64,000 bases of DNA, taken from the NCBI RefSeq assembly GCF_000427405.1, contig NZ_KE386491.1, positions 541,001-605,000 of the forward strand, in the 5' to 3' direction. This DNA comes from Flectobacillus major DSM 103. Lineage in GTDB: Bacteria; Bacteroidota; Bacteroidia; Cytophagales; Spirosomataceae. Position 1 is the first letter of the stretch. Every line of letters begins with the position of its first letter. Both the position numbers and the translations under genes were made by a program. The notes beneath the pieces are model-generated. The model saw only the letters and a program-made list of their open reading frames with translations, was not told where the DNA came from and did not search any database. Shown here one piece after another: positions 18,682 to 57,397 of this stretch.

Positions 18682-19848
18682 ATGATGGGAATTATATTGA
18701 ATATCGCTGTAATTGTGCTACTCTTGCTAGGCGTATTTACGATTTATTTGTTAGTTTTTGCCATTGCAGGAAGGCTGAAAAATACTAAAACAACTACCCG
18801 AAAGCCCGAAAAAATGCGTCGTTTTGCGGTATTTTTACCTTCTTACAAAGAAGATAAAGTAATTCTGGAATCGGCAAGAACGGCGTTGATTCAGGATTAT
18901 CCAGCGGCATTATACGATGTTATTGTAATTGCCGACTCGCTCAAGCCCGAAACCGTTGCCAAACTTCGAGAACTTCCCATCAATACTATCGAGGTAACAT
19001 TTGATGTATCTACCAAGGCTAAAGCCTTGAATTATGCTATTGGTCAGATTGCCAACAATTACGACGTTGCTCTTATCCTAGATGCCGATAACATTATGGC
19101 TTCTGATTTTATCACTAAAATAAATGCCACATTCGATCTTGGGTATCAGGTGGTACAAGGGCATCGTACAGCCAAAAATACCAATTCTCCTACAGCTATC
19201 TTAGATGCTATTAGCGAAGAAATAAATAATCATATTTTGAGGAAAGGGCATCGTGCCTTAGGGCTTTCATCGGCCTTGATTGGCTCAGGAATGGCCTTTG
19301 AGTATCAATTGTTTCGCAATGTGATGCTCGAAATCCATGCTATTGGTGGATTTGATAAAGAATTAGAAATGCGTTTGCTCAAACAGGGCGTAACGTTTGA
19401 TTATATCGACGATGCCATTGTGTATGACGAAAAAGTACAAAATGCAGAGGTTTTTGAAAAGCAGCGTACTCGCTGGATTGCCGCACAGTTTAAGTATCTC
19501 AAGCAGAATTTTGCATCGGGGATTATCTATTTGTTCAAAGGCAATATTGACTATGCCAACAAGGTATTTCAGGCATTGTTGCCGCCACGCATTATTTTGT
19601 TGGGTATGCTGATGTTCTTTTCGTTTGTTTCGCTCTTTTCTGGCGACAAAGCCTTTATGCAATTGGCCATAGGACAGCTATTTTTGCTGATATTTACTTT
19701 CTATATATCAACGCCCGATTTTTTGAAAAAGCTTATTACATGGAAAGAAATTAGCCTTTTACCTTCGTTATTTTTCCGTTTTATCAGAGCTATCTTAAAA
19801 ATGGGTGAAGCTAAGAAAAAGTTTTTGCATACCCCTCACGACTCGTAG
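18682..19848 (+). CDS. membrane-bound processive-type family 2 glycosyltransferase
   Basis: A 388-residue GT2 with an N-terminal transmembrane helix (ILNIAVIVLLLLGVFTIYLL), a GT-A domain and two or three C-terminal helices. Key motifs are VIADSLKPE, the DxD-like LILDADNIM and the acceptor motif QRTRW, which fits QxxRW of hyaluronan and cellulose synthase-like enzymes. It lacks a PilZ domain. It is the last gene of the operon, followed by a 17-bp bidirectional terminator hairpin (19973-20018). It could either extend the repeat unit or make a homopolymer directly. Confidence 0.87.
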   Translation: MMGIILNIAVIVLLLLGVFTIYLLVFAIAGRLKNTKTTTRKPEKMRRFAVFLPSYKEDKVILESARTALIQDYPAALYDVIVIADSLKPETVAKLRELPINTIEVTFDVSTKAKALNYAIGQIANNYDVALILDADNIMASDFITKINATFDLGYQVVQGHRTAKNTNSPTAILDAISEEINNHILRKGHRALGLSSALIGSGMAFEYQLFRNVMLEIHAIGGFDKELEMRLLKQGVTFDYIDDAIVYDEKVQNAEVFEKQRTRWIAAQFKYLKQNFASGIIYLFKGNIDYANKVFQALLPPRIILLGMLMFFSFVSLFSGDKAFMQLAIGQLFLLIFTFYISTPDFLKKLITWKEISLLPSLFFRFIRAILKMGEAKKKFLHTPHDS

Positions 19849-19972
19849 CATGATGTGATAAACCTTTGGTAATATTAAAAGAGACTACCTATGTGTGTGG
19901 ATTCATCAGGTAGCCAAGTGAATTTTGAAGAGGCTTATAATTTGCTCAAATGATAGAAAAGTAGGGGCTATT

Positions 19973-20018
19973 CATACAAAAGGCGTTCGGAAAACTAATT
20001 TCGAACGCCTTTTGTATG
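19973..20018. terminator. bidirectional hairpin, conserved-loop family copy 1
   Basis: Arms CATACAAAAGGCGTTCG (19973-19989) and its exact complement (20002-20018) enclose the 12-base loop GAAAACTAATTT. The A-rich 5' flank and T-rich 3' side allow termination in both directions between two convergent glycosyltransferase genes. The loop recurs at 30953-30960 (opposite orientation) and 56365-56376 with different stems. Confidence 0.8.
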
Positions 20019-20021
20019 TTA

Positions 20022-20080
20022 AATGTCAGAATGACACATCTTTAGTTGCAAAGCATTGCGTCTCTACTCGTGAAAATTAT
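20022..20080. repeat. dispersed repeat flank (REP-like), copy 1
   Basis: The sequence TCAGAATGACACATCTTTAG with a following GCAAAG closely matches 30985-31012 (TCAGGATGACACATCTTTAG, also followed by GCAAAG). Both copies lie just beyond a conserved-loop hairpin, so hairpin and flank look like one mobile or duplicated intergenic element. Confidence 0.55.
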
Positions 20081-20146
20081 ATTCAAAAATAATCACTCAT
20101 TCACTCAATTTGAGATGACCCATGTTATGGATTTACGAAAAGAGTA

Positions 20147-21367
20147 TTACCCGTCGGCTCTTTTTACTTTTTCCCAAATACCTGAAGTAAGGCCATTTTT
20201 GTACCTAAAATACCCTTTGATAGCACACCAATTCATAAATGAAAAATAAAAAGGTACAAATAATAATTTTACCCTAATTTGCCTATCTTCAAGCTGAAAG
20301 CCCAACAATGCCATGATATAAAAAATGGTCTGGGCAATTAGCAAAGCTATATAAAAGTAATTGGGTAATAACGTAACCGAGCTGTCCCACGGAAGAACTA
20401 TCAAAAAATTGAATAAGTAAATAAGAGGTAAACAAAACGGAGCTACAGCCCATCGCATAGCCCGATGCGATACGTACTGAAAAGATAGCCAACCATATTT
20501 AAAAACATTAAGAAGCATCTGTAAGCGATTAATAGCCTGAAAACCGCCCGCAGCAATCCTGATTTTGCGTTTCATTTCGTCTTTGATAGAGAAAGAAGGG
20601 CGTTCTATAGCATAAGCTTCTGGCTCATAAATTACACGGTATCCGTCGGCCGCAATTCGGAGCGAAATCACAAAGTCATCGAGTAGGGTATCCTTTTCTA
20701 CTTGCTGAAACAGGGGTGTTCTTACCGCAAAAAGTTCGCCAGCAGCACCTACAACACTGTACAATTCGGTATCTAATTTTTTCAGAAAAGACTCATATTT
20801 CCAGTATAAACCTTCGCCAGCACCAGCGGCTGCCTCGCTATCATTTAGCTGAATACGTTTTTCGCCAGCTACAGCTCCTACCTTTTCATCCTTAAAGTGC
20901 CTTACAATATTCTTAATAGCTAATTTGTTTAGCGTAGTATTGGCATCGGTAAAAATCACGATAGGCGTTGTAATAGTAGGTACAGCCATATTCATGGCCT
21001 CAATTTTGCCTCGGCGTTCGGTGCCGCCAATAAGGTGAACGTTGGGATATTGCTTTTTTATAGATTCTATATATTCGGTAGTTCCATCGGTAGAGCCTTC
21101 TGTAACAAAAAGGAATTCTATTTTTTTGGCAGGATAATCAAGACTCAGCGAATTGAAAAGTTTACTTTCTACACACGAAATTTCGTTGTAGGCAGGTACT
21201 ACCAAGGTTACGCTGGGCAGATACGAGGGGTCGTTCATGATAGGAAAAGTTTTTCCAAGAACTTTTCTGATTTTGACAAGTCCCCATGCTATTATACCAT
21301 ATCCTAGATAGGTATACAATACCAAGAAAATAGAAACACCAAGGAATAGTTCCAGTAAGTTTTTCAT
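20147..21367 (-). CDS. membrane family 2 glycosyltransferase
   Basis: About 406 residues from the Met at 21365-21367 (MKNLLELFLGVSIFL), preferred over a far upstream start that would add 46 AT-rich, unlikely codons. It has an N-terminal helix, a GT-A domain (VTLVVPAYNEISCVESKL, VTEGSTDGT, IFTDANTTL), the segment GAGEGLYWKYE typical of cellulose synthase-like GT2 enzymes, and three C-terminal helices. In place of the canonical QxxRW it has KRKIRIAAGGFQ. It converges on the exopolysaccharide operon and probably serves the same or a related surface glycan. Confidence 0.85.
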   Translation of the reverse strand: MKNLLELFLGVSIFLVLYTYLGYGIIAWGLVKIRKVLGKTFPIMNDPSYLPSVTLVVPAYNEISCVESKLFNSLSLDYPAKKIEFLFVTEGSTDGTTEYIESIKKQYPNVHLIGGTERRGKIEAMNMAVPTITTPIVIFTDANTTLNKLAIKNIVRHFKDEKVGAVAGEKRIQLNDSEAAAGAGEGLYWKYESFLKKLDTELYSVVGAAGELFAVRTPLFQQVEKDTLLDDFVISLRIAADGYRVIYEPEAYAIERPSFSIKDEMKRKIRIAAGGFQAINRLQMLLNVFKYGWLSFQYVSHRAMRWAVAPFCLPLIYLFNFLIVLPWDSSVTLLPNYFYIALLIAQTIFYIMALLGFQLEDRQIRVKLLFVPFYFSFMNWCAIKGYFRYKNGLTSGIWEKVKRADG

Positions 21368-21695
21368 ATTCAGATGTTTAGTGATGTGCTTTTGTGTGAT
21401 TAAGTCAATTTTTTTATACAGGAAGGTTATTGTAAAACATATATCAAACACCAAGCCATAAATAGATATTATGGGCAAAAAAAAGTCAGATAAATAATTA
21501 GGCAAGTTGTATAATTAAGTAATAGTGCAAAATGAAGTTGAAATTTTAAAAATAATTAATGGTCTGGTAATGAGTTGTTTATTGTAAAAAAAAACACTAT
21601 TCATGATGCCATATTCCTACTTAGAAGCTGCTTGGTATTTTGGGTATGGGTTAGTCCAAGTAGTAGTGTGTTAGCTATAATTGTAATCGTTTGTT

Positions 21696-30134: not shown

Positions 30135-30854
30135 ATGAAATTAGATATTTTGGTAATGGCTGCACATCCCGATGATGCAGAATTAAGCTGTTCAGGAACA
30201 ATTTGTTCGCATATAGCACAAGGCAAAAAAGTCGGCATTGTAGATTTTACAAGAGGCGAATTAGGAACAAGAGGAACGCCTGAAATTCGGTTGGCGGAGT
30301 CGGAAGCGGCTACCAAAATATTGGGTATTCATGCTCGTGAAAACTTGGGCTTTAGAGATGGTTTTTTTGTAAACGACGAAGCTCATTTAATGAAGCTTAT
30401 TGCGACGATTCGTCGCTATAAACCAGAAATTGTTCTGGCAAATGCTATTTTTGACCGTCATCCCGACCATATCAAGGGTGGAGAGTTGGCCGTAGATGCT
30501 TGCTTTAAGGCTGGCCTACGAATGATTGAAACTTTTGAGGAGGATGGCTCGCCTCAGCAAGCTTGGCGACCTAAAAATGTGTACCATTATATTCAAGACC
30601 GCTACGTTCAACCTGATTTTATTGTAGATATTACGCCTTATTGGGAGCAAAAAGAAGCTTCTATACGTGCGTTTAGAAGTCAGTTTTATGACCCTAAGTC
30701 TACAGAGCCTAATTCATACTTATCGTCGCCTGAGTTTCTGAAATTTATCGAAGCTCGTAATCGAGAAATGGGACATGCTATTGGTGTTACTTTTGGAGAA
30801 GGATATACCAGCTATAAGCGAATCGGAGTGACAGATTTACATAGCTTATTATAA
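30135..30854 (+). CDS. bshB1: bacillithiol biosynthesis deacetylase BshB1
   Basis: A 239-residue PIG-L/LmbE-type zinc deacetylase. The metal-binding motif AHPDDAEL (residues 10-17) and a second histidine in DRHPDHIKGG are present, as is the BshB1 segment DFTRGELGTRGTPEIRLAE. It removes the acetyl group from GlcNAc-malate in bacillithiol synthesis. The other bsh genes are not in the window. It stands 58 bases after the second M23 gene and converges on fabV. Confidence 0.93.
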   Translation: MKLDILVMAAHPDDAELSCSGTICSHIAQGKKVGIVDFTRGELGTRGTPEIRLAESEAATKILGIHARENLGFRDGFFVNDEAHLMKLIATIRRYKPEIVLANAIFDRHPDHIKGGELAVDACFKAGLRMIETFEEDGSPQQAWRPKNVYHYIQDRYVQPDFIVDITPYWEQKEASIRAFRSQFYDPKSTEPNSYLSSPEFLKFIEARNREMGHAIGVTFGEGYTSYKRIGVTDLHSLL

Positions 30855-30861
30855 ATAACAT

Positions 30862-31024
30862 GAGTCATCCTGAATTTAGTGAATTGTGATTCTGAAATTT
30901 AATATGAAAACAAAAGTTATCCCGAATATTTAGAACAAACAAGGCGTTCGAAATTAGTTTTTCGAACGCCTTGTTTGTTAAATATCAGGATGACACATCT
31001 TTAGCCGCAAAGCTAAATTCAGGA
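30862..31024. repeat. nested inverted-repeat element containing conserved-loop hairpin copy 2
   Basis: Outer arms TCCTGAATTTAG (30868-30879) and CTAAATTCAGGA (31013-31024) are exact complements. A second pair, GTCATCCTGA (30864-30873) and TCAGGATGAC (30985-30994), is also exact, so the two pairs compete. The centre holds the long hairpin at 30934-30979. Parts of the element recur near 20022 and 56292. It resembles a REP- or MITE-like palindromic repeat and carries no gene. Confidence 0.7.
30934..30979. terminator. bidirectional hairpin, conserved-loop family copy 2
   Basis: 19-bp perfect arms (30934-30952 and 30961-30979; core ACAAACAAGGCGTTCGAA). Read on the minus strand the loop is GAAAAACTAATTTC, the same as copies 1 and 3. 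It separates the convergent genes bshB1 and fabV. Confidence 0.8.
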
Positions 31025-31053
31025 CGATTCATATTTTGCTATTAGGGGCAAAA

Positions 31054-32244
31054 CTACTGCAATCCAGCAATTTCTACAATTTCCTCAACACTCTCTTCGT
31101 AATTAATACCACCTACCTTGAAGCCAAACAGATTAAAGAAGTCTGTTTTATAACCTTCTAGGTCGCCAATCGCAGGTAATGATTCGGTTGTAGCTTCTTC
31201 CCAAAGTACTGCTACTTTTGCCTGAACATCTTCACGCATTTCCCAATCGTCTATTCTTACACGACCCTTATCGTCGGTAGGAATACCTGATGTGCTATAA
31301 AGTCTATCTTGGAACAAACGTTGGATTTGCTCAATACAACCTTCGTGAATTCCCTCTTCTTTCATAACTTTATAAAGCAATGAAATATACAAAGGAATTA
31401 CAGGAATAGCCGAACTAGCCTGAGTAACCAGAGCCTTGTTGACCGAAACATAAGCTTTTCCACCAATATCTGCAAGCTTGTCAGAAATCGTAAAGGCAGT
31501 AGCCTCTAAGTGGTCTTTAGCACGCCCGATAGTTCCTTTTCTATATACCGCTTCGGTAAGAGCTGGGCCAATATACGAATAAGCAACAGTAAGAGCATTT
31601 GGTGCCAAAAGGTTAGCTTCTTTCAAGCCGTCCATCCACATAACCCAATCTTCGCCACCCATTACTTTTACTGTATTTTCAATATCCTGCTCGGTACAAG
31701 GGTCAATTGAAATTTCGGTTACGTTGCCTGTGTGGAAATCAACAGTTTTGTTTTTGAAAGGAGCTCCGATAGGTTTCAAAACCGAGCGGTGAGTAATACC
31801 AGTAGTAGGGTCGGTTCTTACTGGCGAAGCCAAGCTATATATTACCAAGTCGATTTGCCCTAGATCTTCTTTGATTAAAGCAAACGTTTTTTCTTTTACT
31901 TCGTTAGAAAAGGCATCGCCATTGATACTTTTTGCATACAAACCAGCTTCATGGGCTTGTTTTTCAAAAGCAGCGGTATTATACCAGCCTGGTGAAGCTG
32001 TTTTGCCTGGAGCTGCTGGTTTTTCAAAGAAAATACCAATCGTTGAGGCATCAGAACCAAATGCACTGGTAATTCTTGAAGCCAAGCCAAAACCTGTAGA
32101 CGCACCAATTACCAATACTCTTTTAGGCCCGTCGATTTTGCCTTTAGCTTTGATATAGTTGATTTGATTAATTACATTTTGTTCACAACCTTTTGGATGT
32201 GCTGTAAGGCAGATAAATCCGCGCATTCTTGGTTCAATAATCAT
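31054..32244 (-). CDS. fabV: trans-2-enoyl-ACP/CoA reductase, FabV type
   Basis: A 396-residue FabV. It begins MIIEPRMRGFICLTAHPKGC as in other family members. It carries the NAD-binding GASTGFGLASRI and the active-site Tyr-x8-Lys region YSYIGPALTEAVYRKGTIG-RAK. It catalyses the last step of fatty-acid elongation with NADH. FabV is triclosan-insensitive where it replaces FabI; whether a second enoyl reductase exists cannot be seen here. It is transcribed alone. Confidence 0.95.
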   Translation of the reverse strand: MIIEPRMRGFICLTAHPKGCEQNVINQINYIKAKGKIDGPKRVLVIGASTGFGLASRITSAFGSDASTIGIFFEKPAAPGKTASPGWYNTAAFEKQAHEAGLYAKSINGDAFSNEVKEKTFALIKEDLGQIDLVIYSLASPVRTDPTTGITHRSVLKPIGAPFKNKTVDFHTGNVTEISIDPCTEQDIENTVKVMGGEDWVMWMDGLKEANLLAPNALTVAYSYIGPALTEAVYRKGTIGRAKDHLEATAFTISDKLADIGGKAYVSVNKALVTQASSAIPVIPLYISLLYKVMKEEGIHEGCIEQIQRLFQDRLYSTSGIPTDDKGRVRIDDWEMREDVQAKVAVLWEEATTESLPAIGDLEGYKTDFFNLFGFKVGGINYEESVEEIVEIAGLQ

Positions 32245-55190: not shown

Positions 55191-56195
55191 ATGACTACAG
55201 AATCGACTCTTGCTCTCCCAGTTGGCACAACGCTCGACCGTTTCATTATGCGTCAGCAAGAATCATTTGCCTATGCAAAAGGCGAATTGTCGCAATTATT
55301 ACGAGATATTGCTTTGGCTTCCAAGATTGTTGGACGAGAAATCAATCGGGCTGGGCTTACTGATATTACAGGAGCGTTTGGGCGTGATAATATTCAAGGT
55401 GAAAGCCAACAAAAATTAGACGTAATTGCTAATATTCGTTTTAAAAGAGCTTTGATTAATGGAGGAGAAGTATGTGGGATTCTTTCGGAAGAAGAGGACG
55501 ATATTATTCAAACCAACAATTATAATGGCAAATACGTAGTGGCAATCGACCCACTCGATGGTTCATCGAATATCGACGTGAATGTTTCTATTGGTACAAT
55601 TTTCTCGATTTATCGTCGTGTAAGCCCCATAGGCACACCTGCTACTTTCGAGGATTTTATGCAAGGAGGACGTAGGCAGGCAGCCGCAGGCTATATTTTG
55701 TATGGTTCTTCTACCGTAATGGTATACACAACAGGCAAAGGGGTCAATTGTTTTACTTACGAAAACTCGTTGGGAGAATTCTTTTTTTCTAATGCCAATA
55801 TTCAGATGCCCGTTACGGGTAAAATATATTCTATTAACGATGCCTATTACGATGAATTTGCCCCTTCAATCAAATCGTTCATTGCCGATATGCGTGTGTC
55901 GTCGGGTGCAATGGCTCGTTATATAGGCTCGTTGGTAGGAGATTTTCATAGAAATTTGTTGAAAGGGGGGATTTATCTATATCCACCTACTCAGAAGGCA
56001 AAAGAAGGCAAACTACGTTTATTGTATGAATGTTATCCTTTGGCCTTGATACTTGAGCAAGCTGGAGGGCGTGCAATCGATGGCACTCAAAATATCTTAG
56101 ATATTGTACCTACCAAAGTACATCAGCGTTGTGTGGCGTATTTAGGTTCAAAAAACTTGATTGACGATTTGGAACAACGGGTATTGAATGTATAA
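55191..56195 (+). CDS. fbp: fructose-1,6-bisphosphatase, class I
   Basis: A 334-residue class I fructose bisphosphatase. The metal-binding signature [21 protein letters not shown] is at about residues 117-137, preceded by SEEEDDII. The C-terminal substrate-binding block [18 protein letters not shown] and the [20 protein letters not shown] stretch are conserved. It performs the irreversible phosphatase step of gluconeogenesis, completing the set with aceBA, maeB and pckA. It converges on the acyl-ACP desaturase gene across hairpin copy 3. Confidence 0.97.
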
Positions 56196-56291
56196 GTAGG
56201 AGTGTTGGCCTACAAGCGTAGGAGTTGCTACCAAGTAATTATTGTCATAAAAAGCTGGGAGTTATTTTACATTCATTAAAGTTTGGATAAA

Positions 56292-56345
56292 CGTTGAGTT
56301 ATCCCGAATTTTGGGAAAATTTACAAGAAAGACCTTATTGGCTAT
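56292..56345. repeat. dispersed repeat flank, copy 3
   Basis: GAGTTATCCCGAATTT at 56292 onward matches AGTTATCCCGAATATT upstream of hairpin copy 2 (about 30914-30930). Together with the hairpin it supports an intergenic element that has been copied. Confidence 0.5.
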
Positions 56346-56395
56346 TAATCAAAAAAGGTGGTTGAAAAACTAATTTCGACCACCTTTTTTGATTA
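56346..56395. terminator. bidirectional hairpin, conserved-loop family copy 3
   Basis: 19-bp arms (56346-56364 and 56377-56395; core TCAAAAAAGGTGGTTG), one G-U pair, loop AAAAACTAATTT. The stem uses GGTGGT/ACCACC where copies 1 and 2 use GGCGTTCG/CGAACGCC. It separates convergent fbp and the desaturase gene. Confidence 0.8.
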
Positions 56396-56422
56396 AAAAA
56401 ATCGGTATGACTTATGTTTTAT

Positions 56423-57397
56423 TTATAATACCCATGAAAATTTATATTCACAGGTTGGTATTTTAGTTCTTTCTGCAATTTTCAAGAATCGACTTGGCAA
56501 GCCCATCACATAATCTTGTGCTTTACAAGCTTCGTCATTGAGCCCTGTCATGGTTGAAATATTCCAGTCTTTCAATAGCGATTCCATAATTGAAATATAA
56601 TCCTTGGTTGTGTATACCCCAATCCGTTGAGCAGCATCTGAAAAGTGACCAAACACACTCGACTGCTCGCCGTTCATTTCACGCAAAAAGTGGGCAGGCA
56701 TAACAATTTTTTGTTTCATCATCTGAGCAAAAGCAATCATCATTTCAGAAGGGTCTATTTCAAAAATAGCCGAAATAAAAGCACGGTATGCCTTGGCGTG
56801 TCGTAGTTCATCGGCAGCAATTTGTCCACAAATTCTAGAAAGCAATGAACTACCATAATTTTTGGCCAACGAGGCAGTTCTACGGTGAGAAATATTGGTA
56901 GCTAATTCTTGAAAAGAGGTATAAACAAAGCTTTTGTAAGGGTCTTGAGCAGTACCAATATCAAAGCCATCTGCAATTAGGTACTGCGTTGATGTTTCAA
57001 CGGCACGCATATTTACTTTTCCTGAAAGATAAAGAAAGCGGTTGAGTAAGTCGCCATGTCGGTTTTCTTCGGCTGTCCAAGCCTTTACCCATCTTGCCCA
57101 GCCATTATTATCTAAGGGTTTTACACCTTCTACACACATCAACCAAGATTCGTAAGTGGGTAAAGCTTCTTCGGTAATGGTATCGCCAATCAAAACAGCC
57201 CAATAGTCGTAAGGAAGCTCTTTACAGGCTTTTTGTAGCTCTTTTATTTCATCAAAGAAATTATCGTTACTTGCATCGGGTAAGAAATCGGTAGGTTGCC
57301 AGTTGGTATCAATCGGAATAATATAGTCTTCCAAAAATGAGGGCATCCTAGTGGCAAGATGATTCATTACTTCGATACGGGTATGTAGTTTTTGCAT
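56423..57397 (-). CDS. acyl-ACP desaturase (stearoyl-ACP desaturase family)
   Basis: A 324-residue soluble di-iron desaturase of the plant and mycobacterial DesA type. Iron ligands are seen in E110-E111-N112-R113-H114 (EENRHGD), a second pair around E164 and H171, and D196-E197-L198-R199-H200 (ADELRH). It inserts a double bond into acyl-ACP chains using oxygen and a ferredoxin-type donor, thereby adjusting membrane fluidity. It stands alone; the reductase partner is not in the window. Confidence 0.92.
   Translation of the reverse strand: MQKLHTRIEVMNHLATRMPSFLEDYIIPIDTNWQPTDFLPDASNDNFFDEIKELQKACKELPYDYWAVLIGDTITEEALPTYESWLMCVEGVKPLDNNGWARWVKAWTAEENRHGDLLNRFLYLSGKVNMRAVETSTQYLIADGFDIGTAQDPYKSFVYTSFQELATNISHRRTASLAKNYGSSLLSRICGQIAADELRHAKAYRAFISAIFEIDPSEMMIAFAQMMKQKIVMPAHFLREMNGEQSSVFGHFSDAAQRIGVYTTKDYISIMESLLKDWNISTMTGLNDEACKAQDYVMGLPSRFLKIAERTKIPTCEYKFSWVL

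Follow-up and report, generated by a model that had tools for sequence, protein, structure and literature searches.

Why should three of the four convergent gene junctions in a short stretch of bacterial DNA carry long hairpins whose stems differ and whose loops agree? The window, by which the whole analysed stretch of 64,000 nucleotides from Flectobacillus major DSM 103 is meant, has convergent junctions at 1525/1641, 19848/20147, 30854/31054 and 56195/56423 according to gene calling, and the last three each contain such a hairpin. Hairpin 1 (19973-20018) has 20 pairs, one of them G-T, around the loop AACTAA, and is bidirectional and terminator-like. Hairpin 2 (30934-30979) is paired at 20 of 20 positions, and its loop runs the other way, as TTAGTT. 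Hairpin 3 (56345-56396) forms 23 pairs, one G-T, from the stem sequences GGTGGTTG/CGACCACC and again has the loop AACTAA; all three pair counts include GAAA/TTTC. The sequence-only reading that first pointed to these structures had placed them correctly and had recognized that copy 2 is inverted. The fourth convergent junction (1526-1640) contains no element. As judged from sequence comparison, the hairpins are with a probability of roughly 80% the central, bidirectional terminators of an IS-derived, MITE-like family whose members stand where the native terminators of genes would be expected.

The sequence-only reading had expected further copies in the genome, and the family is real: the loop 13-mer AAAACTAATTTCG occurs 73 times in 6.22 Mb, against three occurrences of the reversed control. 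The loop is not universal: approximately 28 of 43 copies have CTAA and approximately 13 have CAA, with other types in the remainder. The proposed stem covariation is also genuine. Among 22 distinct hairpins from a 1.66-Mb sample, pairing holds in 97.2% of cells, and both sides have changed in 10 of the 18 stem pairs. The covariation score is 0.322, compared with 0.118 +/- 0.016 after shuffling, a value reached by none of 500 shuffles and by no slid control. An 880-kb stretch of contig 6 (1.07-1.95 Mb) lacks the exact CTAA-loop 13-mer although elements are present; most of those in the 400 kb read there have the CAA loop, so that loop types cluster by region.

Inspection of the flanks of 30 copies places every hairpin within a longer dispersed repeat. 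Both ends of this repeat read AACATGAGTCATCCC.. inwards, forming inverted terminal repeats of ~20 bp that give 184 matches with at most three mismatches, compared with none for the control. Inward-facing pairs of these ends, 60-320 bp apart, bracket the hairpin and define 61 distinct elements. The arms between ends and hairpin are modular (alpha, beta, gamma or short) and combine mostly as alpha/beta or gamma/short. There are 46 elements in 1.664 Mb, which extrapolates to ~170 genome-wide. An early suggestion that the hairpin marks the target of a mobile element was right about the mobile element, although the hairpin forms its core and is more than a target mark. Like the MITEs of a prokaryotic review (PMC10969869), the elements are short, non-coding, dispersed and intergenic, with terminal inverted repeats common to an autonomous IS, and their copies are old, being ~75-83% identical. 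Unlike those MITEs, they show no target-site duplication (none in 56 of 61 elements), have a dedicated bidirectional terminator-like core, and are very strongly confined to gene 3' ends; in the review, the formation of terminators is merely conceivable. A target-site duplication is usual, not universal, among MITEs, and because it is missing the family is called MITE-like.

Element 1 (19859..20126, delimited as the union of BLAST matches with other elements) consists of a beta arm, the hairpin and an alpha arm, and its left terminal repeat is degenerate. It lies between two convergent genes for family 2 glycosyltransferases, one upstream at 18682..19848 on the plus strand and one at 20147..21505 on the minus strand, and a query around it has 67 matches in its own genome. 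Element 2 (30857..31035) has terminal repeats at both ends and lies between a PIG-L family deacetylase gene (30135..30854, plus) and a convergent trans-2-enoyl-CoA reductase gene (31054..32244, minus). Element 3 (56291..56419), also with both terminal repeats, separates the convergent genes for fructose-1,6-bisphosphatase (55191..56195, plus) and a family 2 fatty acid desaturase (56423..57397, minus). Element 1 is absent from the syntenic locus of the congeners G117 and G119, element 2 is absent in G117, G119 and G120, and element 3 is absent behind the same gene in G117-G120. An unrelated terminator follows the gene of locus 2 in G120, and an ordinary terminator follows that of locus 3 in G117-G119. 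G117 and G119 have an additional stretch of ~0.9 kb, apparently a further gene, between the genes that flank element 1 (19849-20146 in the window), which is missing here. No Rfam match was obtained within the window, and no relative of element 1 was found among the PLSDB plasmids.

Gene context was scored in 1.66 Mb, comprising the window and three stretches of 400-800 kb selected by their coordinates, in which gene calling with a hexamer model gives 201 convergent, 938 tandem and 198 divergent junctions. The 46 elements in this sample are distributed over 33 convergent and 13 tandem junctions, the 33 including one doubtful 37-bp fragment, and none is divergent or intragenic (Fisher p = 1e-18). 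The anticipated enrichment between convergent genes is thus upheld. The window itself was a lucky one, with a hairpin at three of four convergent junctions, whereas the sample has elements at 33 of 201 (16%). The median distance from element to gene 3' end is 11 bp, and 44 of 45 elements are nearer a 3' end than a 5' end. Both strands have the anatomy of an intrinsic terminator, a G+C-rich stem followed by a T-rich tail: 97% of 78 tails contain at least five T within the first eight bases after the G+C core. A terminator scanner did not list the element hairpins, probably because the T-tail pairs within the long stem. On this anatomy, the hairpins look like bidirectional intrinsic terminators.

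The elements also appear to stand in place of the genes' own terminators and to bring a replacement with them. With a native hairpin defined as a stem of at least 8 bp, an additional hairpin is found at none of 32 element-bearing convergent junctions and at 114 of 168 element-free ones (p = 3e-14). Intergenic sequence at the former, with the element subtracted, has a median length of 33.5 bp, compared with 72.5 bp at element-free junctions. Short junction length is not the reason for the missing hairpins, as 80% of element-free junctions of 30-50 bp have one. Two occupied loci in other genomes can be compared with empty sites. A copy of the autonomous IS described below, L366 in G164, lies between convergent genes, 15 and 4 bp from their stop codons, with no native hairpin, and all ten syntenic congeners examined have a hairpin between these genes. 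Another IS copy, L373 in G192, 7 and 4 bp from the stop codons of convergent genes, likewise has no native hairpin beside it, and one is present in all eight syntenic congeners examined. This empty-site support comprises two loci, and the congeners compared are separate species whose flanking gene is roughly 65-85% identical at the nucleotide level.

The autonomous partner was found by a scan of 84,980 species genomes with ACATGAGTCATCCCGAAT, which matches many Bacteroidota and a few Chloroflexota contigs. At four loci these ends lie 1431-1461 bp from each other (~1.45 kb) and enclose one ORF of 446-458 amino acids. Its product matches PF01609 (DDE_Tnp_1) above the cut-off and contains a complete YREK motif, Y-MH-R-WNI-E-QAFRFA-K, and its remote matches are IS4-type models and the Tn5 transposase. 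All NCBIfam models for IS4, IS701 and IS1634 score below their cut-offs (best 58.5 bits, against a cut-off of 152 for IS4), and the transposase is therefore named only as a member of the IS4 superfamily. The outer arms of the MITE-like copies align with the transposase-proximal end of the IS over 56 bp at 82%, which identifies the small elements as non-autonomous derivatives of the IS. The IS has its own hairpin between one end and the start of the transposase gene, and 11 of 18 autonomous copies are no more than 30 bp away from the 3' end of a gene. The transposase is present in the congeners G117, G118 and G119 at 92-100% identity, the protein of G119 being 100% identical. It was not found in the F. 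major genome (E <= 0.001) or in G120 by a search that was positive in 21 of 222 genomes of the family. The copies in F. major are probably either remnants or the product of mobilisation in trans.

In common with the IS4 superfamily (PMC2266710), the IS has DDE_Tnp_1, the complete Y-(2)-R-(3)-E-(6)-K signature, a length of ~1.45 kb, inverted terminal repeats and a hairpin before the transposase gene. It differs in falling below the NCBIfam cut-offs, in lacking the 7-13 bp target duplication that IS4 subgroups generate (PMC2266710), for which reason it is not filed as a member of the IS4 family in the strict sense, and in its apparent position in place of terminators. Short target duplications were rejected as a general feature, being absent from most autonomous copies as well as from the small elements. 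Long ones were rejected as a rule, since only two of the 18 autonomous copies have long direct repeats. These two (L365 and L368, both on contig 4 of G164) have a whole hairpin directly repeated on either side of the IS and immediately next to its ends, the repeats measuring 23-24 and 49-50 bp. Congeners have no hairpin at the L365 site, so a native terminator was not simply duplicated there. The two copies, with direct repeats of 23 and 49 bp, recall IS1634 and IS1549, relatives of IS4 with atypical duplications of 8-514 bp for which there is no mechanistic model (PMC2266710). The full YREK motif is missing from most IS1634 members, however, and most copies here have no duplication.

Under the main reading, the IS and its derivatives settle immediately after stop codons, mostly between convergent genes, where other junctions and other species lead one to expect a native terminator hairpin; this hairpin is missing, as the statistics and the two syntenic loci show. 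The element hairpin, with T-rich tails on both strands, would by its anatomy end the transcription of both neighbours, and an element that brings its own terminator would be nearly harmless on insertion, allowing copies to persist. If such replacement takes place, it would offer transposons a near-neutral route of persistence in compact bacterial genomes and give hosts a ready source of new terminators, with 16% of the sampled convergent junctions served by an element. It would also supply a testable model of target choice for an IS group whose long duplications have no mechanistic model.

The manner in which elements reach these positions is a more tentative matter. The IS4-type transposase may itself recognise terminator hairpins and remove, or sometimes duplicate, them, with an IS or MITE that carries a terminator taking their place; this is put at a little under even odds. 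Such an exchange would make the target a transcription signal folded in DNA, whose destroyed function the element restores, and would hint at how the variable target duplications of the IS4 superfamily, so far unexplained, arise. Direct insertion into hairpins would leave palindromic flanks. These are seen in 9 of 51 elements, compared with 4.4% of mismatched pairs; the enrichment is approximately fourfold, modest and limited to a minority, and it counts against the main reading, as do the general lack of target-site duplications and the duplicated hairpins at L365 and L368.

It is also possible, though open to considerable doubt, that insertion is neutral and occurs anywhere, that copies survive only downstream of genes because elsewhere their strong terminator would be polar, and that native terminators made redundant then decay. 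SPRITE, BOX and RUP in Streptococcus pneumoniae have been explained in this way (PMC3049150). Insertion wherever selection allows could alone account for the location, and the age of the MITE copies leaves time for terminators to decay. Against this, the intergenic sequence left beside elements is half of that at element-free junctions, whereas random insertion biased by length would leave ~205 bp. IS copies elsewhere are nearly identical (seven in G164 differ by about one base, and five in G192 are 100% identical in DNA). The identity of the G192 copies implies recent insertion and makes slow decay after insertion unlikely there, yet L373 has no native hairpin in the few bases left between its convergent genes. 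Autonomous copies, moreover, already lie mostly close to gene 3' ends.

SPRITE is the closest precedent for the F. major family: its scattered copies contain a long hairpin of terminator type with an 18 bp stem, are enriched between convergent genes, lie near 3' ends and have been proposed to be co-opted as terminators (PMC3049150). SPRITE has only AAAA/TTTT ends, and the passages compared name no IS partner for it, whereas the present family has 20-bp terminal repeats, modular arms and a known IS. It also has evidence of missing native terminators, the two families being compared by anatomy and location only. No IS that replaces or targets terminators, and nothing closer than SPRITE, was found in a literature search that covered few subscription papers and is weak evidence for that reason. 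The proposed replacement of terminators is the novel part.

An improbable alternative, raised by the sequence-only reading, is a conserved structured RNA or protein-binding site whose loop is read by an RNA-binding protein or a small RNA. The strength of the covariation would fit this, as would the recurrence of the loop in congeners and a second genus. The family cautions, however, against taking covariation among dispersed hairpins of bacteria as evidence for a functional RNA; in mobile terminators it stems from selection on pairing, from palindrome-templated repair, or from both. The loop is conserved no more than the arms, with a column identity of 0.75 for the loop region and a mean of 0.75 for the whole element in an alignment without re-orientation of the loop. 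There are two common loop types, and loop orientation relative to the arms is random, at close to even ratios (18:15 and 14:11). In Lewinella, Rudanella, Cesiribacter and Saprospiraceae, elements that share these ends have long hairpins with different stems and unrelated loops, and Rfam is silent within the window. A binding partner is therefore not needed, and descent explains the conservation of the loop.

The loop is common to the copies by descent and changes its orientation freely, presumably through template switches inside the palindrome. Recombination between the palindrome arms, or template switching, would turn the loop around and leave the arms identical. Small inversions of hairpin loops are well known in chloroplast genomes. 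In Saprospiraceae SJ15 (L194, L228), a related element has a stem of 26-29 bp and a loop that occurs both as acgattag and as its reverse complement ctaatcgt. This is possibly loop inversion in another family, or just two opposite orientations of the element.

REP or REPIN elements mobilised by a RAYT (Y1) transposase are likewise multi-copy, palindromic and extragenic, but this origin was rejected as highly unlikely, since the genome has no Y1_Tnp gene (the same search was positive in five control genomes) and the present elements are much longer, with paired 20-bp terminal repeats and a DDE IS partner. Ordinary host terminators with loops alike by coincidence would account for the terminator-like appearance and position, and are just as hard to credit, given that every hairpin is embedded in a dispersed repeat bounded by paired terminal repeats, that the usual terminators of the genome have varied loops, and that the window copies were not found at the syntenic congener loci examined.

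Two observations concern the labels of database records. The 18-bp terminal repeat occurs in contigs labelled as Chloroflexota (SAR202, Thermoflexus and Anaerolineales; L200, L226 and L237), to be explained either by horizontal transfer or by an error of binning. The record 'Cellulophaga sp. BC115SP' (L182, L186, L223, L224 and L247) carries elements whose ends are the same and whose hairpins resemble those of the window genus, and its genus name may be wrong.
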